Positions 5,845 to 29,335 of a stretch of 38,891 nt of DNA are shown here, in pieces. The stretch covers positions 1 to 38,891 of the forward strand of contig JANXEK010000012.1 of assembly GCA_025058595.1 (NCBI GenBank), read 5' to 3'. Made by a program: the position numbers and the translations under genes. Source of the stretch: Candidatus Bathyarchaeota archaeon. Its GTDB lineage: Archaea; Thermoproteota; CALKCG01; B24; DRYS01. Numbering within the stretch: position 1 is the stretch's first letter; the number at the start of each line of letters is the position of its first letter. The notes beneath the pieces are model-generated. The model saw only the letters and a program-made list of their open reading frames with translations, did no database searches and was not told where the DNA came from.

Positions 5845-6504
5845 TTGAGTAGGGATGTAAGGAAGCCTAAAATCGTAGAGATGCTCGGAGACCTTGTAGA
5901 ATCCTATGCCGTAAGCGGCAGGTATACCTACCTTAAGATTAGAGGATCACGCTACGACTACATGATCTACGGCAGAGGGGCCGCCGGGTTATACATTATC
6001 TCATCTATATTAGCGGTTTATACGGTATGCAGCGAGGATGATATGGATGAAAGGTATGATCCAGTATTTAGGAGGCTTAAATCCATGGAGTGTATATGGG
6101 ATAACCGTAGGCGGTTGTTTAAACCGAACCCCATGTTAGATGATCTTAGAGAGTATATACCGGACCTGCAGGTATCTACGGAGCTCGCTGATCTGCTTAA
6201 CCAAGATAAATCTATTATGAACTCTATGCTTAGGTTAAAGCCTTCATCGCTATCGATAACACTCTTCTCTATACCGCCGGAGTATCAGCCGTTCACTATG
6301 TATAGAGAAGCTTTAATGAAAGGTATGGCTGAATACTATAAGCTTCCGCTAGCTATACGTTGGCATGTATCGATCGTTAAATCGCATCCACCCTTCTCTA
6401 AACCTTCGATACACGCTATCATAGATATGCTGGAATCTATCCTAGCATACGTGAGATCTGAGGGGGATAGATCTTTAAGCATGTATAACGTGAGTATAGG
6501 TTGA
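5845..6504 (+). CDS. Uncharacterised protein, 219 residues
   Basis: I do not recognise the family. The start is TTG at 5845 preceded by a purine-rich GAGGGGG at 5829-5835, a possible ribosome-binding site. The protein looks soluble, with a mixed alpha/beta pattern, a hydrophobic strand GLYIISSILAVYTV near residues 48-61 and an extended proline-containing segment SHPPFSKPSIHAI near 188-200. No metal-binding cysteine pairs, P-loop or signal peptide is seen. It lies 16 nt after the DUF2116 gene and 6 nt before the ROK kinase gene, so it is probably cotranscribed with both. Codon use is like its neighbours, which argues for a real gene. Confidence 0.65.
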   Translation: MSRDVRKPKIVEMLGDLVESYAVSGRYTYLKIRGSRYDYMIYGRGAAGLYIISSILAVYTVCSEDDMDERYDPVFRRLKSMECIWDNRRRLFKPNPMLDDLREYIPDLQVSTELADLLNQDKSIMNSMLRLKPSSLSITLFSIPPEYQPFTMYREALMKGMAEYYKLPLAIRWHVSIVKSHPPFSKPSIHAIIDMLESILAYVRSEGDRSLSMYNVSIG

Positions 6505-6510
6505 TGTTCC

Positions 6511-7503
6511 ATGCCTTATGTCGATAGATTTACGATTTCCGTCGATATAGGTGCTACGAATATAAGGGTAGCCCTAACCGATGGAGCTAGGTTGATCGAT
6601 AAGATAATGGAGCCTACCGTTAGGCTTAGGGATAGCTTAGATCTAGCTATGCAGGTTATCAGGTTATCTAGAATTATTATAGGTAAGCATAGGGTTGAAG
6701 GTATAGCTGCGATAGGTATAGCTACGATAGGCCCTATGGATATGAGGACCGGTGAACTGTTTAACGTAGCAAACCTAGCTATGGAAACCCGTATCGATAG
6801 GATACCTTTAAAGAAGCCTATAGAGGATGAGTTTGATACGCCCGTATTCATGATAAACGATGCTAGCGCAGCAGCTTTAGCAGAACATATGTTCGGTATC
6901 GGTGTTGGTCTAGCAAACCTGGTATACATAACTCTAAGTACAGGTATCGGTGGAGGGGTCATAGTAGATAACAAACTAATTAAAGGTAAGGATGGAAACG
7001 CTCATGAGGTAGGCCATATAGTTGTCGATATCGAGGAGAGGCTTATCTGCGGATGTGGCGGTAGAGGGCATTGGGAAGCTTACTGTTCAGGTTCAGGGAT
7101 ACCTAAGTATACAAGGCTTATAGCCGAAAGCGAAAAGGATCTATGGTCTTCAAGCCTACTCTACCAGGAAACAGGTGGATGCCTAGATAGGGTTACATCG
7201 AAGCATGTATACGATCTAGCTAGACGTGGAGATAGGTTCTCCATGAAAATCGTAGAGAGTGTTGGTAGGATCAACGCTATGGGTTTCGCATCTGTGATCA
7301 ACGTATACGATCCAGAGCTTATAACGGTGGGAGGATCGATAGCATTCTACAATCCAGACCTTACACTACCATACATAGAGAGGTGGGTTGGAAGATACAC
7401 GGTTAATAGGGTTCCACGTATAACTATAACGCCTCTAGGTGCAGATATAGGTCTATATGGAGGTATGGCGGCAGCTGTTAAAGGCTTGAAGGGTGAGATT
7501 TAG
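6511..7503 (+). CDS. ROK-family sugar kinase (glucokinase-like)
   Basis: 330 residues. The ROK fold is clear: phosphate-1 motif VDIGATNIRVAL (D12), the catalytic aspartate in MINDASAAA (D117), the second phosphate loop STGIGGGVI (about 143-151), and the ROK zinc/sugar region with EVGH (E166, H169) and CGCGGRGHWE. The zinc motif has His at residue 187 where bacterial members usually have Cys; this HW variant also occurs in archaeal ROK glucokinases. ATP-dependent phosphorylation of glucose or a related hexose is the likely role. It overlaps the next start by one base (TAGTG). Confidence 0.88.
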   Translation: MPYVDRFTISVDIGATNIRVALTDGARLIDKIMEPTVRLRDSLDLAMQVIRLSRIIIGKHRVEGIAAIGIATIGPMDMRTGELFNVANLAMETRIDRIPLKKPIEDEFDTPVFMINDASAAALAEHMFGIGVGLANLVYITLSTGIGGGVIVDNKLIKGKDGNAHEVGHIVVDIEERLICGCGGRGHWEAYCSGSGIPKYTRLIAESEKDLWSSSLLYQETGGCLDRVTSKHVYDLARRGDRFSMKIVESVGRINAMGFASVINVYDPELITVGGSIAFYNPDLTLPYIERWVGRYTVNRVPRITITPLGADIGLYGGMAAAVKGLKGEI

Positions 7504-8291
7504 TGTCTAGGTGGACTGGGCTAACTTTATGCGTAGTAGGTTATGGAAGAGGGTCTGGTAAAACAAGGGTTGTAGAAGAGCTTACGAAGATACTAGTCTC
7601 TAGAGGTTATAGCGTAGCTACGGTTAAGCATTGCCTCCATCCTATAGATGTGACTGATAAAGATACATATAGGCATAGAGCTGCAGGTGCTAGGGCTACG
7701 CTAGCTATCTCTAGAGGTGAGGTTGCACTCTTTCTGACTGATTCTAAGGATAGCTTGGAGGGTTATTTCGATCTACTTCCATCGACCACGTTTACATTGA
7801 TAGAAGGTTTCAGAAGGCTGAATTATCCTAAAATACTATGTATCGCAGATGAAGCTCATCTAAGCGATATAGGCTTTGATATGGGGAGTTTAGTAGCCGT
7901 GGTCATATGTAGAGATAGCGTTAAAATTAGCGGTATAGATAAACCTGTATTTTGTCTAAATGATCTTAATTCTCTAGCCGATATCCTAGTAGATATGGCT
8001 CTAGCCAGGATAAAACGTATGCTTGGAGGATCCGATTGCGGTAGATGCGGCTTCAAAGATTGTAGAAGCTTCGCTTCGGCTATGCTTAAAGGAGAAGTGA
8101 ACCCCTACCTATGCATACTGAGTAGAGGATCTAGGATCGAGATATTCTTCGATGGAAAGCCTATCCAGTTGAACATCTTTACTGAGAAGATAGTCTTCTC
8201 GACTCTTAAGGGTCTACTTTCATGTTTTAAAGGATTGGAAAAGCTAGATGACGCAAACGTTAAGTTTAGATTAGAGATTTCGTCGTTTTAA
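7503..8291 (+). CDS. mobB: MobB-type molybdopterin dinucleotide biosynthesis protein with C-terminal Fe-S domain
   Basis: 262 residues in two parts. Residues 1-170 match MobB: P-loop GYGRGSGKT (13-21), VKHCLHPIDVTDKDTYRHRA (41-60) and LIEGFRRLNYPKI (99-111). MobB is a GTP-binding accessory protein for the guanine-dinucleotide form of the molybdenum/tungsten pterin cofactor, needed here by Fwd. Residues 171-262 add an Fe-S domain with cysteines 179, 182, 187 and 204, the same 3-5-17 spacing as the N-terminal [4Fe-4S] motif of both CdhE proteins in this window. The function of the tail is unknown. The GTG start overlaps the ROK stop. The ACS-like operon begins 97 bp downstream. Confidence 0.82.
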   Translation: MSRWTGLTLCVVGYGRGSGKTRVVEELTKILVSRGYSVATVKHCLHPIDVTDKDTYRHRAAGARATLAISRGEVALFLTDSKDSLEGYFDLLPSTTFTLIEGFRRLNYPKILCIADEAHLSDIGFDMGSLVAVVICRDSVKISGIDKPVFCLNDLNSLADILVDMALARIKRMLGGSDCGRCGFKDCRSFASAMLKGEVNPYLCILSRGSRIEIFFDGKPIQLNIFTEKIVFSTLKGLLSCFKGLEKLDDANVKFRLEISSF

Positions 8292-8388: not shown

Positions 8389-10467
8389 TTGAGATCCAAC
8401 GATCTAGGATCTGGGAAAAATCTACATCTTCTCGTAGATGAGCTAAGTAAGCTGCTAGATATCGTTAAGGATAGGTATTCTACGGCTGTGGAAGCTTATA
8501 TCAAGGATTTTCCTCTTGTACTCTCCACCTTACTACTAGGTAGAAATGTATCCAACGTATACGATCTCATTACGATTCTGGATAACGCCGTTAAGTTTTT
8601 AGTGGATTCAAAGGCTTCGATCAGAAGTTTAGCGATTCTATCCGTATACGAGTTGAGGGCTCTACTAAACTTCATATTTTCTAGATCTTCTGTGAAACCT
8701 ATGAGTGATAGCGAAGCTAGAACATATGCTTTCAAGCTTATCTCAGGTGTAGCTCCAGGACTACTCGTAGTCGTAGGTGATGATCCGATAGCTTTAGAGA
8801 AGTTTCTATCTAGAGCTCAGAGACTCGGCTTCGTAGTATTCGTGGTATCTAGCCGATTCCGTGAAGTACTTGATAGCGGACTCGTAGTAGATGGGAGGAG
8901 GGGGTTGATACGATACGTATCGGGTGATCCGATAGACGGGCTAGTATACTCCATAGGTTTAGCTGTGAGGCTTCTATCGATCTCGATCGGGCCGCTCACT
9001 CGTGAGAATTTACTTGAATACCTACAGAAGAGGATACGTCTAGGTGTGGTTACGCTATCAACATCGGATAAGTTCGAGGCTATACTGGATGCTATCTCAA
9101 ATCTAGGTGTGTGCACGGTTGTATCGGCTGGTGTAAACTATGATACAGGTGGTGCCATCTACATCGATAAGATCGAAGATATACTACCTGCGATATGCGG
9201 TAGACTCGGTATATCTGTGATCCTAGAAGAGGAGCTTCCGATAGGTTTCAGCAGCATGTATGAGGGGAAGAGCGTAAGGGATAGGGATGTATACGTAGAG
9301 TTCGGTAACGTGAAGCCATACTTCGAGCTTGTAGTATCACGTAGACTTGAAGAGGTTATTGATGGATATATAGAGGTTATAGGAGCTGATATAGATTCTA
9401 TGCGTGAAGGGTCCGTACAACCTCTAGGTCTATTGGTAGAGGTAGCTGGGGTTAGGATGAAAAGTGAATATGAACCTGTTATAGAGAGGAGTATCCATAG
9501 GATAATAAACCACGGCGAGGAGACCTGGCATGTCGGTCAGAGGGATTCCGGGTGGATAAGGATAACCAGGAGAGGCTTCGATAGAGGCTTCAGGCTTAAA
9601 CATCTAGGCTTCATGCTTTATATAGGTTTAAAGAGGCTATACGGCGATATCCTCGATAAGATTCAGGTCAAAATATATACGGATGAAGATCGGGTTAAAG
9701 ATCTTCTCAAGATAGCTAGAGGTATATATGGTGAGAGGGATCGCAGGTTAATAGGGCTACTAGACGAGGATGTCGAGAGATACTATATATGTACTATATG
9801 CCAAAGCTTCCTATCGAGTCATGTATGCGTAATAACACCTGAAAGGCCAGGTCTCTGTGGTACTGTAACCTATATAGATGCAGAGATCGCATACGAGCTT
9901 AGAGGAGAGGCTTCAAGTATCAAGCCTGTGGATAGGGGTAGACCTATAGATGTATCTAGAGGTGAATGGGAGGGGGTGGATAAAACTGTATTCCAGCTTA
10001 CCCATGGAGCCGTCAATAGAGTATCGTTATACAGTCTAGTTTCTAACCCTACTACATCTACGTTTAGCTTTGAATGCGTATCAGTATTCATACCCGAGTG
10101 TAACGGGATAATGGTTGTAGATTATAGCTATAGGGGTGAAACACCTATCGGTCTATCCTTCGTTGGTATCGTAGGTATGATAAGCGGTCTACAGATGCCT
10201 GGATTCTTAGGACATTCACGTAGATGGATCCTAAGCCGTAAATACTTTAGAGCTGAGGATGGGTTGAAGCGTATAGTATGGATGCCTAGATTTCTTAAGG
10301 AGGTTCTAGGTGAAGAGTTTAGGGATAGATGCATCGAGGATGGCGTTCCAGATCTACCTGAGAAGATAGCCGATGAGTATACCGCTAAGACGTTAGATGA
10401 ACTTCTAGAATGGCTCGTTAAGGTTAGGCATCCAGTCTTAGAGCTTCCACCAATACTGACGTTCTAG
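8389..10467 (+). CDS. Acetyl-CoA synthase paralogue, bacterial-type architecture, distal-nickel motif lost
   Basis: 692 residues, aligning end to end with bacterial ACS (AcsB): an N-terminal region (about 1-280) that in AcsB docks CODH and carries the CO tunnel, a middle domain (about 280-450) and the A-cluster domain (about 450-692). Archaeal CdhC normally lacks the N-terminal region. The [4Fe-4S] ligands are intact: C468, C471, C480 and C490, with the 3-9-10 spacing of Moorella C506/C509/C518/C528. The Cys-Gly-Cys that binds the distal nickel and bridges the proximal one is replaced by T558-F559-S560 in NPTTSTFSFEC, while flanking residues (ECNGIM, RIVWMP) are conserved. Classical acetyl-CoA synthesis is therefore unlikely. 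The protein is full length and undamaged, so it appears selected for another role. The start is TTG, the only one before an in-frame stop at 8365. Confidence 0.88.
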   Translation: MRSNDLGSGKNLHLLVDELSKLLDIVKDRYSTAVEAYIKDFPLVLSTLLLGRNVSNVYDLITILDNAVKFLVDSKASIRSLAILSVYELRALLNFIFSRSSVKPMSDSEARTYAFKLISGVAPGLLVVVGDDPIALEKFLSRAQRLGFVVFVVSSRFREVLDSGLVVDGRRGLIRYVSGDPIDGLVYSIGLAVRLLSISIGPLTRENLLEYLQKRIRLGVVTLSTSDKFEAILDAISNLGVCTVVSAGVNYDTGGAIYIDKIEDILPAICGRLGISVILEEELPIGFSSMYEGKSVRDRDVYVEFGNVKPYFELVVSRRLEEVIDGYIEVIGADIDSMREGSVQPLGLLVEVAGVRMKSEYEPVIERSIHRIINHGEETWHVGQRDSGWIRITRRGFDRGFRLKHLGFMLYIGLKRLYGDILDKIQVKIYTDEDRVKDLLKIARGIYGERDRRLIGLLDEDVERYYICTICQSFLSSHVCVITPERPGLCGTVTYIDAEIAYELRGEASSIKPVDRGRPIDVSRGEWEGVDKTVFQLTHGAVNRVSLYSLVSNPTTSTFSFECVSVFIPECNGIMVVDYSYRGETPIGLSFVGIVGMISGLQMPGFLGHSRRWILSRKYFRAEDGLKRIVWMPRFLKEVLGEEFRDRCIEDGVPDLPEKIADEYTAKTLDELLEWLVKVRHPVLELPPILTF

Positions 10468-10477: not shown

Positions 10478-11329
10478 ATGATCCTTAGGTATAGTGGTTC
10501 ATATACGGTTAAAATCGAAGCTAACAAGTTCTCGTTAGAACTAGTAGGCTGGAATCCTCCGCTACTAGCTCTAACTGCACCTTTGGATATGAATGACACG
10601 TATAGAAAGGTATTCATAGCTAGAGGTTTAGATGTAGATAGAGTGGATGATCTAGCTTTAGATATATCCTATAAATTCGATCCCGATATGCTGTGCATCG
10701 TTCTCCCTAGAGTTGTAGGATCAGATAGCTTAGATCGCTATGTGGATCTATCTCTATCGATCCTAAATAGGGTGGGTAAACCTTTGATGATCCTAGATGC
10801 AGGTTCAGTATCTAATAGATCGATAATCGAAGGTATAGTCGAGAGGGTTGGGGAGTATGAGCTTATGATAGGACCAGCCGATATGGATAATTATAGAACG
10901 TATACAGCTCTAGCGTCTATCTATAAACAGAATCTCTTAGCTAGATCCACTACGGATATAAATCAAGCTAAACAGCTTATACAGCTTATCGCAGAGACAG
11001 GAATCCCGATTGAACGTATAGCTCTCGATATAGCGTCGACAGGGTTAGGCTTAGGACTCGAGGATACTTATAATTTGGTTGAGCAAGCTAAACTATTATA
11101 CGGTAAGGGGGATCACCTACTCTCCGTACCTATAGCTGCTTTCACATGGGATGCCTGGGATTCGCCTGAGGTATACTTAGATGGCTTATCTATCTCTAAG
11201 GGTGCGGTTTGGGAGATGATAACAGCTTCAGCTTATATCCTATCTTCAGCCGATATCATAATACTCCTAGATCCAGAAGCCTTTCTGTACGCTAGGAGAC
11301 TTATAGGTATGTTATCCAGTGCGGTGTAG
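10478..11329 (+). CDS. Divergent CdhD-like corrinoid Fe-S protein small subunit
   Basis: 283 residues, homologous to the TIM-barrel delta subunit (CdhD/AcsD) of the corrinoid iron-sulfur protein, which with CdhE carries the methyl group to ACS. Shared landmarks with the canonical CdhD downstream are the DIN segment (STTDINQAKQL), GLGLGLEDTYNLVEQ matching the GYGIEYAFSVMER region, and the WEMITASAYILSSADI terminal helix. It is about 116 residues shorter than the canonical copy; the N-terminal part with the GATRSEGGSRG loop is missing or reduced. It starts 10 nt after the ACS-like gene with AGGTG before the ATG and is followed after 3 nt by the CdhE-like gene. Identity to the canonical copy looks low, so function is inferred only as a partner in the same complex. 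Confidence 0.8.
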   Translation: MILRYSGSYTVKIEANKFSLELVGWNPPLLALTAPLDMNDTYRKVFIARGLDVDRVDDLALDISYKFDPDMLCIVLPRVVGSDSLDRYVDLSLSILNRVGKPLMILDAGSVSNRSIIEGIVERVGEYELMIGPADMDNYRTYTALASIYKQNLLARSTTDINQAKQLIQLIAETGIPIERIALDIASTGLGLGLEDTYNLVEQAKLLYGKGDHLLSVPIAAFTWDAWDSPEVYLDGLSISKGAVWEMITASAYILSSADIIILLDPEAFLYARRLIGMLSSAV

Positions 11330-11332: not shown

Positions 11333-12682
11333 ATGTTTAGGAAGGTTCAACCTATGCAGATATATATGCTTCTACCTAGACGGAATTGCGGTGGATGCGG
11401 TGTAACTACATGCTTAGCTTTCGCAGCTAAGCTCGCTAGCGGTGAGGCGACACCAGATCTATGTCCATTCCTCACACCCCAAGCTAAAGCTAAGATCTCC
11501 ATGCTAACTATGCCTCCTGTGAAGCTTGTATCCATAGCTTCATCTACGGCTTCGATAGAGGTTGGGGGGGAGGAGGGATTATTCAGACACGATGGAGGGT
11601 TTAGGAGGGAGGCTAGGTTAGCGTACCCTGTAGATCTATCATCAGATGTAGATGAAACTATGGGTATCGTCTCATCTATAGATTCGATCATAGTAGAGCG
11701 TATGGATTCGAAGTTATCCGTAGACTTCTACCTCGTAGATATGAGGGGTATGGATTTAGACTTGGTAGAGGATAGGTTAAAGATCCTCCGCACATATACG
11801 TGTAAACCTCTAATATTGAGGGCTGATAGCCTAGACGCATACTTCTCAGCTTTAAGAATCTTAAAGGATGAGAAGCCTGCTATCGTAGTAGATTCTTCGA
11901 TGATAGCTTCAGAGAAGCTTACAGGTATACAATCTTTGGAAGAATATCCTATCGTAGTCTTGGTAGAGGATATCACTATACTAGATGAGGCAAAAGCTAA
12001 GATGGAAGTTATAGGCATAGATAGGATCATCCTAGGTGTACGCTGCCATGATATCGGTAAGCTTTTAAGGTATACTTCGGTTATGAGGATGAAAGCTTTA
12101 GAGGGTGATAAAAGGTTTGGATATCCTATACTAGTCGATCTAGGTGGGGTTATAGATCACTATGAAGGTTTAGCTACCGTGACAGTATCGCTTCTCAGGT
12201 ATTCATCGATAGTCGTCCTACCTAGATTTATGCGTAGAGAGTGTATCGAAGGCCTACTGGTCTTTAAACAGTCTATATATACGGATCCCAAGAAGCCTAG
12301 GATAGTAGATCCGGGGATGTATAGCGTCGGATCGGTTTCACGATCTTCGCCTATAGTTGTAACGTCTAACTATGCTCTAACTTTCGATATAGTTAGAAGG
12401 GTGATCAAATCGTCAGGTGTAGGATGCTGGATTCTCGCAATCGATACCGGCGGGTTATCTGTAGCTTCAGCTATAGGTGGTGGTAGGTTTACGGCTAGAC
12501 AGGTGGTCGAAGCTATCCAAGCTTATAGGGATAGAGTCGATCTAGATAGAGTGCCTATAATTATCCCAGGTTTAGCTTCGAATATAAAGCCTGAGATAGA
12601 AGCTTTAGGGTTCAACGTTTTCATCGGACCTATTAAGGCTAGGGATCTTCCGATGCTCATCAGATCCCTAGAGTATAGATAA
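11333..12682 (+). CDS. Divergent CdhE-like corrinoid Fe-S protein large subunit
   Basis: 449 residues, homologous to the gamma subunit (CdhE/AcsC). The N-terminal [4Fe-4S] motif is intact with C19, C22, C27 and C44, identical in position to the canonical CdhE of this window; in the family this cluster reduces the corrinoid. A central TIM barrel follows, and the C-terminal corrinoid-binding region keeps TSNYALTFDIV, AIDTGGLSVASAI and VPIIIPGLASN, matching the canonical copy. Methyl-corrinoid chemistry therefore looks possible. The gene ends in a 15-nt tail-to-tail overlap with cooC. It is the last gene of the three-gene paralogue operon. Confidence 0.85.
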   Translation: MFRKVQPMQIYMLLPRRNCGGCGVTTCLAFAAKLASGEATPDLCPFLTPQAKAKISMLTMPPVKLVSIASSTASIEVGGEEGLFRHDGGFRREARLAYPVDLSSDVDETMGIVSSIDSIIVERMDSKLSVDFYLVDMRGMDLDLVEDRLKILRTYTCKPLILRADSLDAYFSALRILKDEKPAIVVDSSMIASEKLTGIQSLEEYPIVVLVEDITILDEAKAKMEVIGIDRIILGVRCHDIGKLLRYTSVMRMKALEGDKRFGYPILVDLGGVIDHYEGLATVTVSLLRYSSIVVLPRFMRRECIEGLLVFKQSIYTDPKKPRIVDPGMYSVGSVSRSSPIVVTSNYALTFDIVRRVIKSSGVGCWILAIDTGGLSVASAIGGGRFTARQVVEAIQAYRDRVDLDRVPIIIPGLASNIKPEIEALGFNVFIGPIKARDLPMLIRSLEYR

Positions 12683-13441
12683 CTTTTTAGCTATAGATTT
12701 AACCGCTAGAAGGGATGGGCTATCGTCTGGCAGCCTAAGTATAGATATACCCTTCATATTGTATAGCGATACATTCTCATCGTAGGGTATGTATCCTCCA
12801 TACTCTAAGCCTATGCTGTTCGCATACTCTCTGAGTATATACTCATCCTTCTCATCGAATAAATTCCCTATGAGCACCATACGTTTAACTTCTACGTGAA
12901 CTTCTTCCGCTACCTCTTTTATCCTAGAGACAGTTTTAAACCCCATACGCGATCTATCTGTAATTACGAACATTACATCTACATCGCTATCAACCCTCCT
13001 ACTTATATGCTCTAAACCTGCCTCCATATCCATTATGGTCACATCGTAGTTTTGTATGAGGTTGGTTAGTATCAACGTAAGCATATAGTTGACGCTACAG
13101 TAACATCCTTCACCTTCACCTCTACCCATAGCTATCAGATCGAATCTAGGATTCTCAACTAGTATCTCGTATATCCATCCTTCGAGCATATCCCTCTTAC
13201 TAGCGTCGTAGCTTATCCTACCCATCTGTATATCGTCTTTGAGTTTAGCAGCTATATCCGCTACAGTACCTTTAACCTCAACCCCCAATGCTTCGGGTAG
13301 ATTGGTAGCTGGATCTCCATCGACCATGAGTATAGTCTTATCGGTTTCATCTAGATACGTTCTGAGAAGCAGTACTGATAGGAGTGTTTTACCTACGCCA
13401 CCCTTACCTGATACAGATATAACGAATCCTCTACGCTTCAC
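12668..13441 (-). CDS. cooC: CooC-type nickel-insertion ATPase for CODH/ACS
   Basis: 257 residues, a SIMIBI-class P-loop ATPase with a deviant Walker A motif SGKGGVGKT (residues 11-19) and the CooC metal-binding CxC motif GCYCSVN (C113, C115). CooC dimers bind nickel and deliver it to the C-cluster of CO dehydrogenase, and related proteins mature the ACS A-cluster. It is divergent from cdhA across 83 bp and lies between the paralogue operon and the canonical operon, so it could serve either. A 12-bp palindrome at 13461-13472 lies where its TATA box should be, about 25 bp before the ATG. Confidence 0.9.
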   Translation of the reverse strand: MKRRGFVISVSGKGGVGKTLLSVLLLRTYLDETDKTILMVDGDPATNLPEALGVEVKGTVADIAAKLKDDIQMGRISYDASKRDMLEGWIYEILVENPRFDLIAMGRGEGEGCYCSVNYMLTLILTNLIQNYDVTIMDMEAGLEHISRRVDSDVDVMFVITDRSRMGFKTVSRIKEVAEEVHVEVKRMVLIGNLFDEKDEYILREYANSIGLEYGGYIPYDENVSLYNMKGISILRLPDDSPSLLAVKSIAKKLSIL

Positions 13442-13524: not shown

Positions 13525-15888
13525 ATGGCATCGCTATCCAGATGGAAAGTTATGTCTAAGAGGGATTTCAACCTTAGAGTTAAGAAGCTTGTATCGGATA
13601 TAGTTCAAGCTGAAGAGCTTGAGATATCTTTCGGAAGAATACTCGAAGAGTGGGAGGAGCCTCTCGGACCTACACCTTTCCCCTCGATAATCGATCTTAG
13701 ACGCTGGGATCAGATACTCTTAGAGAGGTATAAGCCCTTCTACATGCCTTTCTGCGATCTATGCTGCCTCTGTACGATGGGTAAATGCGATCTAACAGCA
13801 GGTAAGAGGGGTGCATGCGGTATAGATATGTCTGCGCAACAATCTCGTATAGTCCTCCTAGCAGCTTGTATAGGTGCTGCAACCCATACAAGCCATGCTA
13901 GACATCTACTCGAGTATCTTATATCTAGGTACGGTAGGAATCATCCTATAGATTTAGGCGGCAATATATACTTAGAGGCGCCTATAATCAGGCTTGTATG
14001 CGGTATAAAGCCTAGAACCATAGGAGATCTTGAGGATGCTTTAAGCTATGTAGAGGAGCAGATAATCTCCCTACTAGCGGCTACCCATACCGGTCAGGAG
14101 GATAGCTGGATCGATTTCGAATCTAAGGTATTCCACACCGGTATGCTGGATCATGTAGCTTTAGAGATAGCCGATATAGCTCAGATAGTAGCTCTAGGGT
14201 ATCCTAAGGGTGATCCTGAAGCCCCCCTCACAGAGATAGGCTTAGCAGCTATAGATCAGAATAAACCTGTTATACTCGTAGTAGGTCATAACGTACCATC
14301 GGCCGCTTCGATAGTAGACTATCTAGTCAAAAGTAAGATGTATGGATCAGTAGAGGTTGCAGGTATATGCTGTACGGCACATGATGTAGCTAGGTACAGC
14401 CCTACGGCTAAGATCGTAGGCCCCCTTTCATGGCAGCTTAGATTCGTTAGAAGCGGTCTACCAGATGTAGTGGTCGCCGATGAGCAGTGTATAAGAGCCG
14501 ATATACTACTGGAAGCTGCTAGGGTGAAAGCACCTGTCATCGCAACTTCCGTAGAGAAATGTATGGGTTTACCAGATGCTACGGGTGAACCTATAGACTC
14601 CATAGTCGAGAAGCTTGTGAGCGGATCTATGCAAGGCGTCGTATTCCTAGATCCTGAAAGGGTAGGGGAGCTAGCCGTTAAAACCGCACTGAAAGTATTC
14701 CCGCATAGGCAGAAGGTTAGATCTCTACCATCGGATGAAGAGTTAAAGGTTCTAGCTTCTAGATGCAGGGGCTGTAGATTCTGTGAGAGAGCATGTCCTA
14801 ACAATCTACCTATAGCCGAAGCTATGAGTACAGCTTCTAAAGGCGATTTCAACGCTCTCGCATACCTATACGAGGTGTGTATAGGGTGTGGTAAATGCGA
14901 GGGGGCCTGTCCTCGGAATATACCTGTACATAGCGTTATAGTCCAGGGTGCTAGGAAAATCTGGAGGAATGAGAGGTTTAAGATTAGAGTCGGTAGAGGA
15001 CCTATACAGGATGTAGAGATAAGGAATGTCGGTAGACCTATAGTCTTCGGTGAAATACCTGGGGTTATAGCTTTCGTAGGATGTTCGAACTACTATAACG
15101 GTGGACGTGAGATCGTAGAGATGGCTGAGGAATTTTTGAAGAGGAATTATATAGTTGTAACTTCCGGGTGCGCGGCTATGACGTTAGCTATGGCTAAAGA
15201 TGAGGAAGGTAGATCGCTGTATGAGAAGTATAGCGGAGCTTTCGATGCAGGTGGATTAGTGAACGTAGGTTCATGCGTATCTAATAGCCATATAGCCGGA
15301 GCGGCTATAAAGATCGCAGCTATCTTCGCTAAGAGGAATCTTAGAGCTAACTATGAAGAGATAGCCGACTATATACTGAATAGGGTTGGAGCCGTAGGTG
15401 TAGCTTGGGGTGCTATGAGTCAGAAGGCTGCAGCTATAGCTGCGGGATTCTGGCGTTTAGGTGTACCTGTAATAGTAGGTCCTCATGGAGCTAAATATAG
15501 ACGTTTTCTCTTAGGTCGTAAAGAGGATGAAAGCTCATGGTATACCTATGATGCTAGGACCGGGGATAGAGTGTATGCTGGCCCAGCTCCGGAGCATCTA
15601 TTCGTAGCTGCTGAAGGTAAAGAGGAAGCTATAGTTATGATAGCTAAGCTATGTATGAGACCGAACGATACGAGTAAGGGTAGAGCTATAAAGCTTTCAC
15701 ACTACATAGATCTGAGTAAAAAGTTCTTCGGAAGTCTACCAGATGATCTACACCTATACGTTAGGAGGGAAGCTGATATACCCCTAACATTGAAATCTGA
15801 GGTTATAAAGTTCCTCAAGGAGAAGGGTTGGAGTGAGAAGCCTATACCCGATCCAACCCTTCTACCTAGACTCGTGAGGAAAAGGTGA
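13525..15888 (+). CDS. cdhA: CO dehydrogenase/acetyl-CoA synthase alpha subunit
   Basis: 787 residues, the nickel CO dehydrogenase of the archaeal CODH/ACS complex, interconverting CO2 and CO. Visible parts: an N-terminal cysteine group for the B and D clusters (C77, C80, C81, C83, C88, C98); two ferredoxin motifs, CRGCRFCERACP (from 414) and CIGCGKCEGACP (from 452), found in the archaeal alpha subunit and absent from bacterial CooS/AcsA; and C-cluster ligands H255 (GHNVPSA), C283 (GICCTAHD), C322 (DEQCIRAD), C520 (VGCSNYY), C549 (TSGCAAM) and C584 (GSCVSNSH). All key residues are present, so the enzyme should be active. First gene of cdhABCDE, 6 nt before cdhB. Confidence 0.96.
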   Translation: MASLSRWKVMSKRDFNLRVKKLVSDIVQAEELEISFGRILEEWEEPLGPTPFPSIIDLRRWDQILLERYKPFYMPFCDLCCLCTMGKCDLTAGKRGACGIDMSAQQSRIVLLAACIGAATHTSHARHLLEYLISRYGRNHPIDLGGNIYLEAPIIRLVCGIKPRTIGDLEDALSYVEEQIISLLAATHTGQEDSWIDFESKVFHTGMLDHVALEIADIAQIVALGYPKGDPEAPLTEIGLAAIDQNKPVILVVGHNVPSAASIVDYLVKSKMYGSVEVAGICCTAHDVARYSPTAKIVGPLSWQLRFVRSGLPDVVVADEQCIRADILLEAARVKAPVIATSVEKCMGLPDATGEPIDSIVEKLVSGSMQGVVFLDPERVGELAVKTALKVFPHRQKVRSLPSDEELKVLASRCRGCRFCERACPNNLPIAEAMSTASKGDFNALAYLYEVCIGCGKCEGACPRNIPVHSVIVQGARKIWRNERFKIRVGRGPIQDVEIRNVGRPIVFGEIPGVIAFVGCSNYYNGGREIVEMAEEFLKRNYIVVTSGCAAMTLAMAKDEEGRSLYEKYSGAFDAGGLVNVGSCVSNSHIAGAAIKIAAIFAKRNLRANYEEIADYILNRVGAVGVAWGAMSQKAAAIAAGFWRLGVPVIVGPHGAKYRRFLLGRKEDESSWYTYDARTGDRVYAGPAPEHLFVAAEGKEEAIVMIAKLCMRPNDTSKGRAIKLSHYIDLSKKFFGSLPDDLHLYVRREADIPLTLKSEVIKFLKEKGWSEKPIPDPTLLPRLVRKR

Positions 15889-15894
15889 TATCGA

Positions 15895-16443
15895 TTGTCT
15901 ATGTATAGGTTTCCCGAGCCTTGGGCTACGGCTGAGATACCTGGACCTAAGAAAGCCGCTATTCTATCTAGACCTGAATCTCTAGTAGCTATAATAAAGA
16001 GGTCTAATCGTAGACTTCTCGCCGTGGGATCTAAAGCTCTAGATAAAGTGGAGGGTATCGATATCGTTGAGCTTATCCGTCTCCTCTCCTCTACTAAGTT
16101 GTTCACTATCGTAGCTTCTAGGAATATAGCTTATAAGCTTGAAGGTAAAGGTATACCTATCGCCGCATCTATATCCGTATACGAGCTTGGAGATAGGTTG
16201 AGAGATGGCAATTGGACAGGTTTCGATGGAGGTGGGAAGTATGGTCTGACGGCTTTCATAGGTTTCCCATACATAACCCTATGGCTCGTGCTATCTGGGC
16301 TTAAACACTTCGCTCCAAGCTTATCTACGGTTAGTTTGGATCCGTACTATCAGCCTCATGCATCCTGGTCTCTACCTAATGTTAGAGGTGGAGAATGGTA
16401 TTCATTTATTAAGAGGGTAGTAGATAGTCTTGAGGTGATGTAG
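15895..16443 (+). CDS. cdhB: CO dehydrogenase/acetyl-CoA synthase epsilon subunit
   Basis: 182 residues, the small epsilon subunit that binds the alpha subunit and is found only in the archaeal-type complex. It resembles nucleotide-binding DHS-like Rossmann domains: the family segment EPWATAEIPGPKKA opens the protein, and GFPYITLWLVLSGLKHFAP near residue 121 and SLDPYYQPHASWSLPN near 149 are typical. The start is TTG at 15895, 6 nt after the cdhA stop. Its presence next to cdhA, and absence from the paralogue operon, marks this operon as the complete system. Confidence 0.92.
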   Translation: MSMYRFPEPWATAEIPGPKKAAILSRPESLVAIIKRSNRRLLAVGSKALDKVEGIDIVELIRLLSSTKLFTIVASRNIAYKLEGKGIPIAASISVYELGDRLRDGNWTGFDGGGKYGLTAFIGFPYITLWLVLSGLKHFAPSLSTVSLDPYYQPHASWSLPNVRGGEWYSFIKRVVDSLEVM

Positions 16444-16446
16444 TCT

Positions 16447-17868
16447 ATGTTTCAAGATATACCTGTGGATGTAGGTATAGCATACGAGGGGGAGCGTATC
16501 CGTAGGGATGATATGTACGTAGAGTTCGGAGGACCTAGAATCGATAAGAAGTTCGAGCTTCTAAGGATTAAACCGTTAGATGTGGTTGAAGATGGAAAGA
16601 TATCTGTGATAGGCCCTGATATCCATCAGCTTAAGGAGGGAGGAAGCTATAGGCTTGGTATCTACGTAGAGGTAGCTGGGAGTCAACTTTCAGAGGATCT
16701 TGAAGGAGTTTTCGAGAGGCGTATACACGAATACCTCAACTATATACAAGGGTTTATGCATCTCAACCAGAGGTACGATATATGGTGTAGGCTTAGTAAG
16801 GCTAGCTACAACAAAGGGCTTAATAGCTTCAAGTATCTAGGTCTCGTATTGATACGCCTGTTCAAATCGGAGTTTCCGATAATAGAGAGGATGCAGGTTA
16901 CCTTCATAACCGATCCTGATAAGGTTGCTGAGATGTGGGAGGAAGCTATGAAGGTCTATGAGGGTAGGGATGCTAGAGCTAGAGGGTTGAAGGATGAGGA
17001 GGTCGATACGTTCTATGGATGTGTTTTATGCCAAAGCTTCGCACCTACCCATGTATGCGTAATAACGCCACAAAGATACTCTAACTGTGGCGCTATGAGC
17101 TGGTTCGATTGCGGAGCTGCTGCACGTATAGATCCTAAGGGGCCGATCTTCCCTATACCTAAAGGTGAACTCTTAGATCCTGTGAGAGGTGAGTATACGG
17201 GTGTAAACGAAACGGCGAGAGCACGTTCGCTAGGAGCTATAGAACGTGTATGTCTATATACCATGTTCGGTTATCCTCATACTAGCTGCGGATGTTTTGA
17301 AGGTGTAGCGTTCTATATACCGGAGGTCGATGGGATAGGTATCGTTCATAGAGATTTTAAAGGTCCGACCGTTAACGGGCTTGCCTTCGCAGCTTTAGCA
17401 GACGCTACCGCCGGGGGTAGGCAGGTTGACGGATTCCACGGTATATCGATAGAGTATCTTAGATCTCCTAAATTCCTTCAAGCGGATGGCGGATGGGTGA
17501 GGGTTGTATGGATGCCATCGGCTATCAAAGAGAGGATGAAAGGGTTTATACCTGATGAGCTACTGGATAAGATAGCTACGGAGAAGGATGTATCGAATAT
17601 AGATGAGCTTAAGAGGTGGCTGGAGGAGAAGGGTCATCCGGTAGTGAAGCGTTGGGTTGAAGTAGCTAAGCCGGCCCCCATGGTTGAAGCTAGGGCTGAA
17701 GAGGTTAAGGCTGTCGAAGCTAAGCCAGAAACACCTATGATCTCAGCGCCTACGGTTGAAGCTGTAGTACCTACGGCTATACCTGGTGTATCTCTGAGGA
17801 TAACGTTTAAGGATGCTAGGATCTATGCTAGGAAGGTTATCGTTAGGAAGGTTAAAACTGGTGAGTAG
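16447..17868 (+). CDS. cdhC: Acetyl-CoA synthase beta subunit, canonical archaeal form
   Basis: 473 residues, the short archaeal ACS without the N-terminal CODH-docking domain. It joins a methyl group from CdhDE, CO from CdhA and CoA into acetyl-CoA. The A-cluster is complete: C192, C195, C204 and C214 for the [4Fe-4S] part and CGC at 281-283 in PHTSCGCFEG for nickel. After about residue 405 an Ala/Glu/Pro-rich linker leads to a conserved tail ending RKVIVRKVKTGE, a C-terminal extension also seen in methanogen CdhC. GAGGTGAT precedes the ATG. It provides the direct internal comparison for the paralogue at 8389-10467. Confidence 0.96.
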   Translation: MFQDIPVDVGIAYEGERIRRDDMYVEFGGPRIDKKFELLRIKPLDVVEDGKISVIGPDIHQLKEGGSYRLGIYVEVAGSQLSEDLEGVFERRIHEYLNYIQGFMHLNQRYDIWCRLSKASYNKGLNSFKYLGLVLIRLFKSEFPIIERMQVTFITDPDKVAEMWEEAMKVYEGRDARARGLKDEEVDTFYGCVLCQSFAPTHVCVITPQRYSNCGAMSWFDCGAAARIDPKGPIFPIPKGELLDPVRGEYTGVNETARARSLGAIERVCLYTMFGYPHTSCGCFEGVAFYIPEVDGIGIVHRDFKGPTVNGLAFAALADATAGGRQVDGFHGISIEYLRSPKFLQADGGWVRVVWMPSAIKERMKGFIPDELLDKIATEKDVSNIDELKRWLEEKGHPVVKRWVEVAKPAPMVEARAEEVKAVEAKPETPMISAPTVEAVVPTAIPGVSLRITFKDARIYARKVIVRKVKTGE

Positions 17869-17871
17869 GGG

Positions 17872-19071
17872 TTGGGTACGCGTAGGAAGGATCTGGGAGA
17901 ATCTTTCCTAGAATGGCTTTTAAAATTGTTATCGGAATCTGAGGAGATAGAATTCGAAGATTTCAACCTAGAAGCTTCCGAGTTTCAGCTAGATGTGACA
18001 GGTATAGCTTCTATCGTTAAACCTATGCTAGAGGCTGCTAAGTCTATGGAGGCTAGAGCTATAGAGCTCATCGAGGAGCTTCCTAAGCCTGAAGCGATGT
18101 TTACGAATCGTATAGCGGAGGTTAGGATAGGCGCTACCAGATCTGAGGGCGGATCTAGGGGTAGGGTTATAGTTATAGGTGGGGAGGTTACTATGCCGTT
18201 TTACAGCTTCTCAGCTTTGAACCCGAATCCACCGGTAGTTTCTGGAGATGTATTCGATTGGAAGCTTCCCCTACCTAAACCTTTGAGGGATAGCTTCGGT
18301 GACGCTATGGATGATCCTGCCGAGTGGGCTAAGCTCTACATAGATAAGTTCGACGCGGATATGGTGACAGTCGAGTTAACCAGTACGGACCCATCGATAA
18401 GGGATACGCCTGTGAGGGAAGCTGTGAAGGTTGTAGAAAACGTTCTTCAAGCTGTAGACTCCCCCGTTATGGTTGGAGGTTCAGGTGATCCAGTTAAGGA
18501 TGTAGAACTTCTGACGGAGGTTGCAGCTATCTTTGAAGGTGAGAGGCTCCTCCTAAGCTCCATACCCTCGCCTGAGGATAGGTTTAAACCTATAGCCGAA
18601 GCTGCTAAGCGCTACGGGCATAACGTCGTAGCGTGGGCCTCTCTAGATATAAACCTTCAAAGGGATCTTGACAGAGCTATACTAAATGTTCTCCCGCCTG
18701 AACGTATAGTTATAGATCCTACCTCAGCCCCTCTAGGCTACGGTATAGAGTATGCGTTCTCCGTCATGGAACGTATACGTATAGCAGGGCTTATGGGTGA
18801 TAGAGAGTTAGCTCTACCCATGCTATCGGGTACGAGTAACGCTTGGGGTGCACGTGAGGCATGGCTTAAAACACCTGAACTCGGACCTAGGGAGGTTAGA
18901 GGGCCTCTCTGGGAGGCTATTACAGCTTTAACGTTCCTCCTAGCTGGATGCGATCTATTCATAATGATGCATCCCCTAGCGATAAAGACTGTTAAGCAAA
19001 CCATCTCATGGCTCTACGGTAGATGGGATACACCGGCTAAAGCTATACCTAACTGGTTGGAGGAGATGTAA
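17872..19071 (+). CDS. cdhD: Corrinoid Fe-S protein delta subunit
   Basis: 399 residues, the TIM-barrel small subunit of the corrinoid iron-sulfur protein that carries the methyl group from the pterin to CdhC. Typical features include VRIGATRSEGGSRG near residue 85, GGEVTMPFYSF near 103, SLDINLQRDLD near 261, PLGYGIEYAFSVMERIRIAG near 286 and the C-terminal LWEAITALTFLLAGCDLFIM. The start is TTG at 17872, 4 nt after cdhC. The residues before about 80 form an acidic N-terminal extension. The gene ends directly before the cdhE ATG. Confidence 0.94.
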   Translation: MGTRRKDLGESFLEWLLKLLSESEEIEFEDFNLEASEFQLDVTGIASIVKPMLEAAKSMEARAIELIEELPKPEAMFTNRIAEVRIGATRSEGGSRGRVIVIGGEVTMPFYSFSALNPNPPVVSGDVFDWKLPLPKPLRDSFGDAMDDPAEWAKLYIDKFDADMVTVELTSTDPSIRDTPVREAVKVVENVLQAVDSPVMVGGSGDPVKDVELLTEVAAIFEGERLLLSSIPSPEDRFKPIAEAAKRYGHNVVAWASLDINLQRDLDRAILNVLPPERIVIDPTSAPLGYGIEYAFSVMERIRIAGLMGDRELALPMLSGTSNAWGAREAWLKTPELGPREVRGPLWEAITALTFLLAGCDLFIMMHPLAIKTVKQTISWLYGRWDTPAKAIPNWLEEM

Positions 19072-20478
19072 ATGGCTAAGAAGATTAGCCCTATGGATGT
19101 ATACAAGCTGCTACCTAGACTTAACTGCGGTAGATGCGGTATATCTACATGTCTAGGTTTCGCAGCTAAGCTTGTAGAGAGAGCGGCTAGGCTTGAGGAG
19201 TGTACACCGTTATTTGAGGAGGAGAGGTATAGGGATAATCTATCTCAGCTTAGAGAGGTTTTAAGGCCGCCGGTGTTGGAGGTAGCTTTCGGCCCTCCAG
19301 GTAGGGAGGTTAGGGTTGGGGGTAAACTCGTATTGCATAGACATGAACTTAGATATATGAATCCTACGGTTTTAGCCGTCGATGTATGGGATGATATCGA
19401 GGGGGATCTGGAATCTAGGGTGAAGCTTGTCGATAGCTTAAGCTACACCTATATAGGTCGAGAGCTTAAGCTTAACGCTTTAGCGTTAAGGTGTAGATCT
19501 GGCGATCCATCTAGATTCCAGGATCTAGCTGAGAAGGTGTCTAAGCTTACAGATCTACCGATCATTCTTTGTAGCTTAGATCCTGAAGCATTGGAGGCTG
19601 CGTTGCTAAAGGTCGGCGATAGGAGGCCTCTCATATACGCAGCTACAGAAGATAACTGGCGGGATCTATCCGAGCTGGCTAAAATGTACGGATGCCCGAT
19701 AGTAGTATCCTCTCCCGGGAATCTATCTAAGCTTAGAGGTCTCGTTAAAGTTTTGAACGATGAAGGTGTAGATAGGCTTGTATTAGATCCGGGTACGTAT
19801 GTAGGTGAAGGCTTAGCTTATACTGTGAACAGCTTTACCCTTCTAAGATGGCTTGCATGCAGGCAGGGTGATAGGCTATCAGGCTACCCGCTTCTAGCTA
19901 TACCTGCAGTCGTATGGGCTGATGAAGGGTTTAGAGGTAAACCGGAGGAGGCTAGCTGGATGGAGGCTACGGTTACAGCTATGATGATAGCTAGATACGC
20001 GGATATAGCGATAATCCATGGGGTCGAGGTGTGGCAGCTTCTCCCGAACCTGATACTTAGAGAGAATCTATATACGGATCCGGTTAAACCTGTAAGCGTA
20101 GAACCAGGATTAAGGGAGTTTGGATCTCCGGATGATAGATCACCTCTCCTAGTGACTACAAACTTCGCTCTAACATACTTCACAGTATCTTCGGATATAG
20201 AATCCGCTAAGCTCAACTGCTACCTCCTAGTAGTCGATACCGAAGGCTTATCGGTAGAATCCTCGGTAGCTGGACGTAAGCTTACGGCTGAGAAAATAGC
20301 TGAAGCTATGAAGGAGTATAGGGTTGCGGAGAAGGTTTCCCATCGTAAGGTAGTTATACCTGGCTTAGCCGCTAGGCTTAAAGGAGAGTTAGAGGATCTA
20401 ACCGGATGGGAGGTACTGGTTGGCCCTAGGGATTCATCGGATATACCGAGTTTCCTAGCTAAGTACTGGAGGATATAG
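19072..20478 (+). CDS. cdhE: Corrinoid Fe-S protein gamma subunit
   Basis: 468 residues. The N-terminal [4Fe-4S] cluster uses C19, C22, C27 and C44 (NCGRCGISTCLGF and EECTPL); it reduces Co(II) to Co(I) of the corrinoid. A TIM barrel and C-terminal corrinoid-binding domain follow, with TTNFALTYFTV, VVDTEGLSVESSV and VVIPGLAARL. CdhDE accepts the methyl group from methyl-tetrahydromethanopterin. The ATG abuts the cdhD stop. The gene ends in a 20-nt tail-to-tail overlap with the AOR gene on the other strand. Confidence 0.95.
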   Translation: MAKKISPMDVYKLLPRLNCGRCGISTCLGFAAKLVERAARLEECTPLFEEERYRDNLSQLREVLRPPVLEVAFGPPGREVRVGGKLVLHRHELRYMNPTVLAVDVWDDIEGDLESRVKLVDSLSYTYIGRELKLNALALRCRSGDPSRFQDLAEKVSKLTDLPIILCSLDPEALEAALLKVGDRRPLIYAATEDNWRDLSELAKMYGCPIVVSSPGNLSKLRGLVKVLNDEGVDRLVLDPGTYVGEGLAYTVNSFTLLRWLACRQGDRLSGYPLLAIPAVVWADEGFRGKPEEASWMEATVTAMMIARYADIAIIHGVEVWQLLPNLILRENLYTDPVKPVSVEPGLREFGSPDDRSPLLVTTNFALTYFTVSSDIESAKLNCYLLVVDTEGLSVESSVAGRKLTAEKIAEAMKEYRVAEKVSHRKVVIPGLAARLKGELEDLTGWEVLVGPRDSSDIPSFLAKYWRI

Positions 20479-25063: not shown

Positions 25064-25462
25064 ATGAGCTGTAGTGGTAGGTTGAAGATAGTATTGATAA
25101 CCGGTAGGAGTATCAAACAGGGTAGATCCAAGGATACGGGTAAATTCTTCGATGAATATCGTGAAGCTATATCTGTATGCGAGATGAACCCTATGGATAT
25201 GGAGGCGTTAGGTATAGCTAGAGGCGGGTATATCGATATATCTTCTCCATACGGATCTGTAACGGTTCTAGCTACACCTTCACCCGATATCCCTAGAGGG
25301 GTGGCGTTCATACCCTATGGAATGATAGCTAACATGCTCATACCTCCCGATACGGAGGGAACCGGTATGCCTAGATCTAAAGGTTTAGAGGTATGGGTTA
25401 CCCCTTCGGTTAGACGCCCCCAAGATCTCAGATCTCTAGTTAAATCTGTAGGAGGTGTATAA
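25064..25462 (+). CDS. fwdD: Formylmethanofuran dehydrogenase subunit D
   Basis: 132 residues, the small domain that closes over the pterin cofactor of FwdB, corresponding to the C-terminal domain of molybdopterin-dinucleotide oxidoreductases. Features are TGRSIKQGRSKD near residue 14, DMEALGIARGGYIDISSPYG near 46-65 and the PRGVAFIPYGMIAN cofactor-contact segment near 77-90. It starts the fwdDBAC operon, with its own TATA box and inverted repeat, and is followed by fwdB after 6 nt. Confidence 0.9.
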   Translation: MSCSGRLKIVLITGRSIKQGRSKDTGKFFDEYREAISVCEMNPMDMEALGIARGGYIDISSPYGSVTVLATPSPDIPRGVAFIPYGMIANMLIPPDTEGTGMPRSKGLEVWVTPSVRRPQDLRSLVKSVGGV

Positions 25463-25468
25463 TCTTCT

Positions 25469-26794
25469 ATGGCTATACCTTCCATCCTGGTAGAGGAGAA
25501 GACTACTGAGTATACCGTCGAGGATGTGGTCTGCCCATTCTGTGGATGCTGCTGCGACGATCTGATAGTAACTGTTAGGGATAGTAGGATAGTGGATGTT
25601 AGGAATGCTTGCGCTTTAGGTGCATCGAAATTCCTCCATATGAATGAAGGTAGGCTTCTCAAACCTAAGATAGGCCGTTTCGATACGGCTAAGGAGGTTT
25701 CGGTAGATGAAGCTATCGAAACCGTAGCGAACCTCTTGAAGGATAGCAGCTATCCGCTATTCTACGGTTGGGCTTGTACATCGTGCGAATCTATACTTCT
25801 AGGTTTAGACCTAGCCGACCTACTCGGCGGTGCTATAGATAATACGAGTATAATCTGTCATGGGCCTACCGTACTTGCAGGCCAGGAGTTAGGCTTGATA
25901 GCAGCGACTCTAGGTCAAGTTAAGAATAGAGCGGATCTTATAGTCTACTGGGGATGTAATCCTCTGGAGGCTCATCCTAGACATTTAGCTAGATATAGCG
26001 TATCTGCTAGGGGTAGATTTATCGATGGTAGAAGGGATCGTAAAGTTGTCGTGGTAGATGTTAGGAGGACCGCTACCGCTAGGATGGCGGATCTATTCGT
26101 AGAGGTGAAGCCTGGCTACGACTACGAATTGTTATCCGCGTTGAAGATGCTCGTTAAAGATCTCGATCTAGAGGTAGATGAGGTGGGAGGGGTTCCTGTA
26201 TCTGAGATCGAGAAACTCGCAGATATGATGGTCGAAGCTAGATTCGGAGCTTTATTCTTCGGTACAGGTTTAACTATGAGTAGGGGTAGGGATAAGAATG
26301 TAGAGGCTGCTATAGAGCTTGTCAGATGCCTAAACTTTAAGACGAAATTCGTTTTGATACCTATGCGTGGACATTTCAACGTTACCGGAGCTAACGAGGT
26401 ATTCACTTGGAGGACTGGATATCCTTTAAGCGTAGATTTCAGTCAAGGTTACCCGCGTTATCTTCCAGGTGAGACTACGGCTGTGGATATACTTCGTAGA
26501 GGTGAATGCGATCTATTCTTCGTAGTGGCATCCGATCCTATCTCCCATCTTCCTAGACGTATCCTAGAGCATCTAGGTAATATACCTGTCGTAGCGTTGG
26601 ATCCTAAAATCACGCCTACAGTATACTTATCCGATGTAGCTATACCTGTAGCGTATACTGGTATAGAGGTTGAGGGGACTGCGTATCGTATGGATACCGT
26701 TCCGCTTAGGTTGAAGAAGATAGTGGAGCCTCCTCAAGGTATACTATCAGATGTGGAGATCCTGGGGATGATATTGGAGAAGTTGAGGGGGTGA
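25469..26794 (+). CDS. fwdB: Formylmethanofuran dehydrogenase subunit B (catalytic, Mo/W-pterin)
   Basis: 441 residues, the catalytic subunit that reduces CO2 to formate, which is then passed through a tunnel to FwdA. The N-terminal [4Fe-4S] motif CPFCGCCCDD (C22, C25, C29) with C48 is complete. The metal-ligand cysteine is C130 in IICHGP, equivalent to the cysteine ligand of tungsten in Methanothermobacter FwdB; no selenocysteine is used. YWGCNPLEAHPRH near residue 170 and the downstream pterin-contact segments fit the family. It is 6 nt from both neighbours in the operon. Confidence 0.95.
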   Translation: MAIPSILVEEKTTEYTVEDVVCPFCGCCCDDLIVTVRDSRIVDVRNACALGASKFLHMNEGRLLKPKIGRFDTAKEVSVDEAIETVANLLKDSSYPLFYGWACTSCESILLGLDLADLLGGAIDNTSIICHGPTVLAGQELGLIAATLGQVKNRADLIVYWGCNPLEAHPRHLARYSVSARGRFIDGRRDRKVVVVDVRRTATARMADLFVEVKPGYDYELLSALKMLVKDLDLEVDEVGGVPVSEIEKLADMMVEARFGALFFGTGLTMSRGRDKNVEAAIELVRCLNFKTKFVLIPMRGHFNVTGANEVFTWRTGYPLSVDFSQGYPRYLPGETTAVDILRRGECDLFFVVASDPISHLPRRILEHLGNIPVVALDPKITPTVYLSDVAIPVAYTGIEVEGTAYRMDTVPLRLKKIVEPPQGILSDVEILGMILEKLRG

Positions 26795-26800
26795 GCTTGG

Positions 26801-28504: not shown

Positions 28505-28516
28505 GAGGTGTGTATC

Positions 28517-29335
28517 GTGAGGGTAACGTTTAGACCTTTAACCCCGTTCAAAGTCCCGGTGGATCTTTCACCTATAACCCCAGATAACCTGGAGGATATG
28601 GATATCGGTGAGATTAGATCTCTACAGATATCCTTAGGCTCTAAACGTAAGAGGGTTGATGAGGTATTCTCGGTAGAGCTATCTGAGGATGCGGAGGGCG
28701 AGGTAGCTGTAGTGTTCATGGGAGATTTCAGTAAAGCTAGAGGGATAGGCTCAGGGATGAGTAAGGGTAGTATTACTGTTAAAGGTTCAGGCGGTCTTAG
28801 AGTCGGTGAGTATATGCGCGGTGGGACGATAGTAGTCGAGGGTGATGTCGATCACTGGCTCGGTATGGGTATGCGTGGCGGATCTATAAACGTTAAAGGA
28901 TCGGCTGGAAGCTATGTAGGTGCTCCTCCCAAAGGATCGTCTAAAGGTATGCGTGGCGGATCTATAATGATCGAGGGGGGTGCAGGCGAATGTGTAGGAG
29001 CCTATATGCGTGATGGTAGTATAGAGGTTAAAGGTAGTGTAGGTCTATTCCCAGGGTTAAGGATGCTAGGAGGAGTGGTTGTGGTATACGGGGATTGTAT
29101 GGGGAGAGCTGGTGCTAGGATGAAGGATGGTAGAGTGATAATACTCGGTAGAGCAGGTTCTATACTCCCTACATTCCAGATAGAGGAGGTACGACCGTCC
29201 GTTAGAGGGGTACGCGAAAGGTTGGAAGGACCGTTCTACGTATTCCAAGGCGATCTATCAGAGGATGGACGGGGCCGTCTCTTCGTATCTAAACAGTCGA
29301 ACCCTGAACTGGAGTACCTCGAGAAACTACTCTAA
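28517..29335 (+). CDS. fwdC: Formylmethanofuran dehydrogenase subunit C (beta-helix)
   Basis: About 272 residues. FwdC is a right-handed beta-helix related to the C-terminal domain of glutamate synthase; the repeated G-x-x-M-R-G-G-x-I units near residues 95-190 form the coils and probably scaffold FwdA and FwdB. Two of these repeats share 22 identical bases (from 28868 and 28947). I place the start at GTG 28517, because GGAGG at 28504-28508 sits 8 nt before it; the alternative GTG at 28508 overlaps that site. The 3' end overlaps the DUF488 gene tail by 9 nt. Confidence 0.92.
   Translation: MRVTFRPLTPFKVPVDLSPITPDNLEDMDIGEIRSLQISLGSKRKRVDEVFSVELSEDAEGEVAVVFMGDFSKARGIGSGMSKGSITVKGSGGLRVGEYMRGGTIVVEGDVDHWLGMGMRGGSINVKGSAGSYVGAPPKGSSKGMRGGSIMIEGGAGECVGAYMRDGSIEVKGSVGLFPGLRMLGGVVVVYGDCMGRAGARMKDGRVIILGRAGSILPTFQIEEVRPSVRGVRERLEGPFYVFQGDLSEDGRGRLFVSKQSNPELEYLEKLL

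Follow-up and report, generated by a model that had tools for sequence, protein, structure and literature searches.

Two hot-spring archaea carry, next to a normal CO2-fixing acetyl-CoA synthase (ACS), a second ACS-like protein, here designated ACSpar, which retains the four cysteines of the [4Fe-4S] ligand block and has Thr-Phe-Ser or Thr-Leu-Ser in place of the Cys-Gly-Cys motif. In ACS, Cys-Gly-Cys holds the distal nickel and bridges to the proximal nickel. We propose, with a probability of about 0.45, that ACSpar does not synthesise acetyl-CoA but is a pseudo-ACS with the Fe-S cluster alone, which docks with a corrinoid protein of its own and handles electrons or methyl groups. A natural ACS with only the Fe-S half, accompanied by its own corrinoid partner and standing beside a working copy, would allow the roles of the Fe-S cluster and of nickel to be separated experimentally, and would illustrate the rebuilding of a carbon-fixation complex into a pseudoenzyme. 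If this reading is true, ACSpar would be a naturally evolved nickel-free derivative of an enzyme that ranks among the oldest in carbon fixation.

The gene lies in a 38,891-nt window (the whole stretch of DNA that was analysed; contig JANXEK010000012.1, GCA_025058595.1, Candidatus Bathyarchaeota archaeon), and all coordinates without a locus prefix are positions in this window. The features of the locus, with the basis of each assignment, are as follows.

6511–7503, + strand: ROK-family protein, encoded upstream of ACSpar and linked to it in both species
7503–8291, + strand: MobB/FeS-domain fusion, also encoded upstream and with the same linkage in both species
8389–10467, + strand: ACSpar, a predicted nickel-less ACS homologue of the long AcsB type (ORF, profiles and AF2 model), with domains A1 (residues ~1–280), A2 (~281–446) and A3 (~447–692)
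8977–8979, + strand: S197 of ACSpar, at the site of the CO-alcove Phe229 of Moorella (alignment; Ser in both species)
9790–9858, + strand: [4Fe-4S] ligand block C468-x2-C471-x8-C480-x9-C490 of ACSpar, with QSFLS replacing QSFAP (alignment)
10060–10068, + strand: T558-F559-S560 of ACSpar, where the nickel-binding Cys-Gly-Cys stands (alignment)
10478–11329, + strand: CdhD/AcsD-like CFeSP small subunit with a shortened N-terminus (Pfam CdhD, 61 bits)
11333–12682, + strand: CdhE/AcsC-like CFeSP large subunit (Pfam FeS and CdhD; NF003195, 311.8 bits with a cut-off of 306)
12668–13441, − strand: CooC-type P-loop ATPase between both modules, also found beside the second CFeSP genes in genomes G004 and G005 and in G368
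13525–20478, + strand: canonical archaeal cdhA-B-C-D-E operon, complete (profiles)
16447–17868, + strand: CdhC of the canonical operon, with intact PHTSCGCFEG

Identity and metal-site residues of ACSpar

The ACSpar frame begins with TTG and runs without interruption over 692 residues. Its A2-A3 part is homologous to AcsB/CdhC (PF03598 and PF19436 above the cut-off), with Pfam scores of 168 bits for CdhC and 280 bits for ACS_CODH_B_C. Among the full-length profiles, the bacterial alpha/beta ACS model PRK09529 scored 555 bits, as against 356–366 bits for the archaeal CdhC models, and the score remained below the NCBIfam equivalog cut-off for the bifunctional alpha/beta ACS (554–555 vs 800–809 bits). 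The AlphaFold2 model (pLDDT 84) superposed on the truncated ACS 3git over A2-A3 with a TM score of 0.92 (1.8 Å, 412 columns), and its A1 domain matched the A1 domain of ACS with a TM score of ~0.7 at 17% identity. Among intact proteins, the closest to ACSpar is the long archaeal ACS of G368 (40–44% identity), a genome of another family. In the tree, whose programme flagged the amino-acid composition of both ACSpar proteins, ACSpar and its sister-species orthologue stand beside the G368 protein within the clade of bacterial-type ACSs (99/96). The stem leading to the two is long (1.5 changes per site), and the CdhC of their own genomes branches elsewhere. A recent duplication of the local CdhC is ruled out by this tree. 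Judged from its sequence, ACSpar is a bacterial-type three-domain AcsB homologue and not a CdhC duplicate. The term paralogue, used in the sequence-only reading on which this study builds, must therefore be taken with a qualification, as ACSpar branches with long AcsB proteins and apart from the CdhC of its genome; that reading had also not included the long bacterial type of the protein or the two diverged CFeSP-subunit genes that follow it.

The residue assignments of the sequence-only reading were borne out by the alignment: C468, C471, C480 and C490 (spacing 3-9-10) align with C506, C509, C518 and C528 of Moorella ACS, and T558-F559-S560 with C595-G596-C597. The orthologue of the sister species has Thr-Leu-Ser (TLS) at the latter site, so that the loss is common to both species and is no local error. 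Cys-Gly-Cys was present in all 40 intact ACS/CdhC sequences of one alignment and in 98/98 other distinct complete ACS/CdhC sites, ACSpar (TFS) and its orthologue (TLS) being the only exceptions; likewise, QSFAP occurred in 99/99 other sites collected and QSFLS in these two proteins only (both counts cover nearly all matches of a 398-genome phylum sample, plus the class). The Ala-Pro pair after CxxCQSF (A513-P514), invariant elsewhere, is thus L475-S476 in ACSpar. A further change concerns Phe229, which forms a wall of the CO alcove and whose mutation to Ala abolishes autotrophic growth in acetogens (PMC11321310): its equivalent is Phe in all six long ACSs compared and Ser in both ACSpar species. 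ACSpar keeps the equivalents of F512, R429 and W427 and 64 of the 84 near-invariant ACS positions of A2-A3. T558 and S560 are the same in both species, and C563, C571 and C648 are also conserved. The suggestion that C563 serves as a substitute nickel ligand was not upheld, as Cys also occupies this position in G368 and in about eight CdhC proteins that have Cys-Gly-Cys. Among the papers searched, none describes an ACS that lacks Cys-Gly-Cys or a maintained nickel-less ACS.

The ACSpar module, its neighbours and its conservation

ACSpar is followed by the CdhD-like and CdhE-like genes with gaps of 3–10 bp. In both species, the CdhD-like protein lacks the invariant N-terminal segment GATxxEGG(S/T)R in the alignment, and many positions that are invariant in real CFeSP are lost; its model is a TIM barrel with 4djd_D as the closest structure. 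The CdhE-like protein retains the four FeS cysteines (C19, C22, C27 and C44) and, in the corrinoid domain, T344, N346, L349, T350, D371, T372, G374 and S376, and its TIM barrel is ~20% identical to others. An origin of this protein by duplication of the local CdhE was rejected (AU p ~1e-4). Its closer affinity is to the second CFeSP of family f2 or to G368, and the tree picks neither. The sister species shows the same order throughout, including the ROK-family gene, the MobB-FeS gene, the module, CooC and cdhABCDE. The genome has a single CODH gene, and a CODH partner of the module's own was accordingly rejected; since a RACo homologue is encoded elsewhere in the genome, the module is not explained by a lack of RACo.

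Several other genes of the window are worth recording. A 219-aa protein encoded at 5845–6504 has no Pfam match and is 72% conserved and linked in the sister species. In this genus alone, a gene that fuses MobB to a CFeSP-type FeS domain is linked to ACSpar; its homologues in the rest of the class lie away from the ACS locus. Formylmethanofuran dehydrogenase-like genes (annotated by eye) and mch (NCBIfam) occupy 25064–31248.

The sister-species orthologue of ACSpar is 72% identical in amino-acid sequence and lies in the same gene order, and the gene is present in only these two species among the seven genomes of the class. The occurrence of the same cluster with the same loss in a sister species ruled out an assembly error or chance. 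A pattern scan of genome contigs yielded the sister record JAGTQC010000006.1 as the sole match, the patterns having been taken from variable stretches, so that the scan is no measure of distribution; no match was obtained in the viral contigs scanned, and the plasmids scanned gave one remote ACS only.

The frames of all three module genes are intact in both species. For ACSpar, the CdhD-like gene and the CdhE-like gene, the pairwise Nei-Gojobori dN/dS between the two species was 0.21, 0.15 and 0.27, respectively, compared with 0.06–0.19 for the canonical cdhA-E genes. Within ACSpar, it was 0.30 for A1, 0.12 for A2, 0.15 for A3 and 0.09 for residues 463–500, the Fe-S loop. The proportions of differences at codon positions 1, 2 and 3 were 0.21, 0.13 and 0.41 (third vs others, p ~2e-33). 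Identity between the species rises from 57% in A1 through 78% in A2 to 84% in A3, the Fe-S domain and best-conserved part. In the CdhE-like protein, it is 88% for the FeS domain, 62% for the TIM barrel and 78% for the corrinoid domain; canonical CdhE has the same ranking with a smaller contrast. ACSpar is thus maintained by purifying selection that is somewhat relaxed and is tightest at the Fe-S site. The maintenance of the frame, which the sequence-only reading had described as intact over 692 residues, is thereby confirmed.

Proposed function and alternative explanations

We predict that ACSpar still builds a [4Fe-4S] cluster on C468, C471, C480 and C490 and that it would be unable to hold two nickels or trap CO, hence would make no acetyl-CoA. 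We further propose that A2 and A3 dock with the CdhE-like corrinoid protein in the manner of a genuine ACS on CFeSP; the bare cluster would then face the corrinoid, passing electrons or holding or gating methyl-corrinoid. Such a methyl-handling reaction would be separate from the acetyl-CoA synthesis by the canonical operon. A published AlphaFold3 docking model (PMC12289521) places A3 of ACS against the corrinoid domain and A2 against the FeS domain, and the domain conservation of ACSpar and the CdhE-like protein follows this arrangement; this favours the docking role as support and not as proof, because canonical CdhE ranks likewise. Other observations count against the proposed function, besides its basis in two species only. 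The f2 genomes keep a second CFeSP without a second ACS, so that the corrinoid protein may not need ACSpar as a partner, and the CdhD-like partner has lost many CFeSP-invariant positions. Moreover, the RACo homologue could reduce the corrinoid, which lessens the need for ACSpar as a reductive activator; the idea of a reactivation partner of the corrinoid protein is accordingly possible but weakened. More broadly, we tentatively entertain a repurposed nickel-free ACS/corrinoid complex, in which the bare cluster may reduce, gate or hold a methyl carrier on the docked corrinoid, or may act as a NifEN-like scaffold.

That ACSpar still works as an acetyl-CoA synthase, with nickel or another metal on the Ser/Thr oxygens, C563 or other cysteines, is highly improbable. 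The sharing of T558 and S560 and of the three downstream cysteines by both species would fit such a site, but C563 is matched by Cys in many intact ACSs, no relative deviates from Cys-Gly-Cys, the CO alcove is lost too and a complete canonical operon is present. Given the absence of Cys-Gly-Cys, of the alcove Phe and of a dedicated CODH, classical acetyl-CoA synthesis by ACSpar appears very unlikely. The claim that normal synthesis should be blocked is, on these residues, strengthened by the losses at Phe229 and A513-P514. A functionless relic of a bacterial-type ACS/CFeSP module now being lost would account for the long branch, for dN/dS values of the module above those of most canonical genes and for the absence of a second ACS from the sister families. 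This explanation is quite unlikely and already disfavoured, however, as both species, at 72% identity, retain all three frames intact, dN/dS is far below 1, third codon positions differ most and the cluster loop is the most constrained part.

Two further explanations take ACSpar to be functional without catalysis, and we regard each as unlikely. By analogy with NifEN beside NifDK, it might serve as the scaffold or platform on which the canonical A-cluster is assembled, holding a nickel-less [4Fe-4S] intermediate or helping CooC to load CdhC. The CooC-type gene between the modules, the nickel-free cluster site kept under selection and the linked MobB-FeS fusion gene are consistent with this role; on the other hand, CooC also accompanies the second CdhD/CdhE in f2 genomes having no second ACS, most ACDS-bearing genomes do without such a protein, and the paired CFeSP-like subunits are left unexplained. 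Alternatively, ACSpar might have a sensory or regulatory role, as a dead enzyme monitoring the methylation of the corrinoid, the redox state or the CO state and governing the canonical complex. Its retained fold and cluster site with catalysis lost, its position adjoining the canonical operon in both species and the linked ROK-family gene would suit a sensor, but Pfam revealed no output domain in ACSpar, and a protein with neither nickel nor F229 is unlikely to bind CO.

Comparison with known systems

Compared with bacterial AcsB (Moorella 1oao, Carboxydothermus 1ru3 and C. autoethanogenum 6ytt), ACSpar has the same three-domain length and fold, the [4Fe-4S] ligands, a long sequence match (E ~1e-123) and the same tree position, whereas it lacks Cys-Gly-Cys and Phe229, has QSFLS for QSFAP and is only ~19% identical in A1. 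Archaeal CdhC shares the four cluster cysteines and is 36–40% identical to ACSpar in A2-A3; however, CdhC has Cys-Gly-Cys and no A1 domain, whereas ACSpar has A1 and no Cys-Gly-Cys and groups with bacterial-type AcsB.

Relative to CFeSP (CdhD/CdhE, AcsD/AcsC), the CdhE-like partner keeps the FeS cysteines and corrinoid motifs, but its TIM barrel has diverged (~20%), and the CdhD-like partner, a TIM barrel near 4djd_D, lacks GATxxEGG(S/T)R. Family f2 of the same order has a second, well-preserved CdhD/CdhE pair and no second ACS (L042:11650-13999, L043:11554-13862 and L044:7844-10154); in the f2 genomes G004 and G005, this orphan CFeSP module comes after the canonical genes and CooC. An ancestral second module of the bacterial type that was reduced differently in each family is plausible but not proven. 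Another genome of this order, G002 (95% complete), has no CODH or ACS match, unlike the others in the class.

The long archaeal ACSs of G368, G044, G030 and G218 belong to the same phylum and, unlike ACSpar, all have Cys-Gly-Cys and the Phe229 equivalent. In G044, G030 and G218, the long ACS stands immediately before cdhA and a separate CdhC is also present, and in G044 and G030, unlike in the ACSpar module, no second CdhD/CdhE pair lies at the long ACS. Such operons with two ACSs, a long A1-bearing one with Cys-Gly-Cys and CdhC, occur in other archaeal families (L021:14309-16390, L023:2-1930 and L074:9560-11665). In G218, a further CdhE-like gene (L074:18705-19901) follows cdhE on the opposite strand and is cut by the end of the stretch. 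The G368 set is of the bacterial type, CooC-AcsD-AcsC-AcsB (L073:6935-12351), with intact Cys-Gly-Cys, and a separate bacterial-type CODH is found elsewhere in that genome, which suggests that the bacterial carbonyl branch was transferred into this archaeon.
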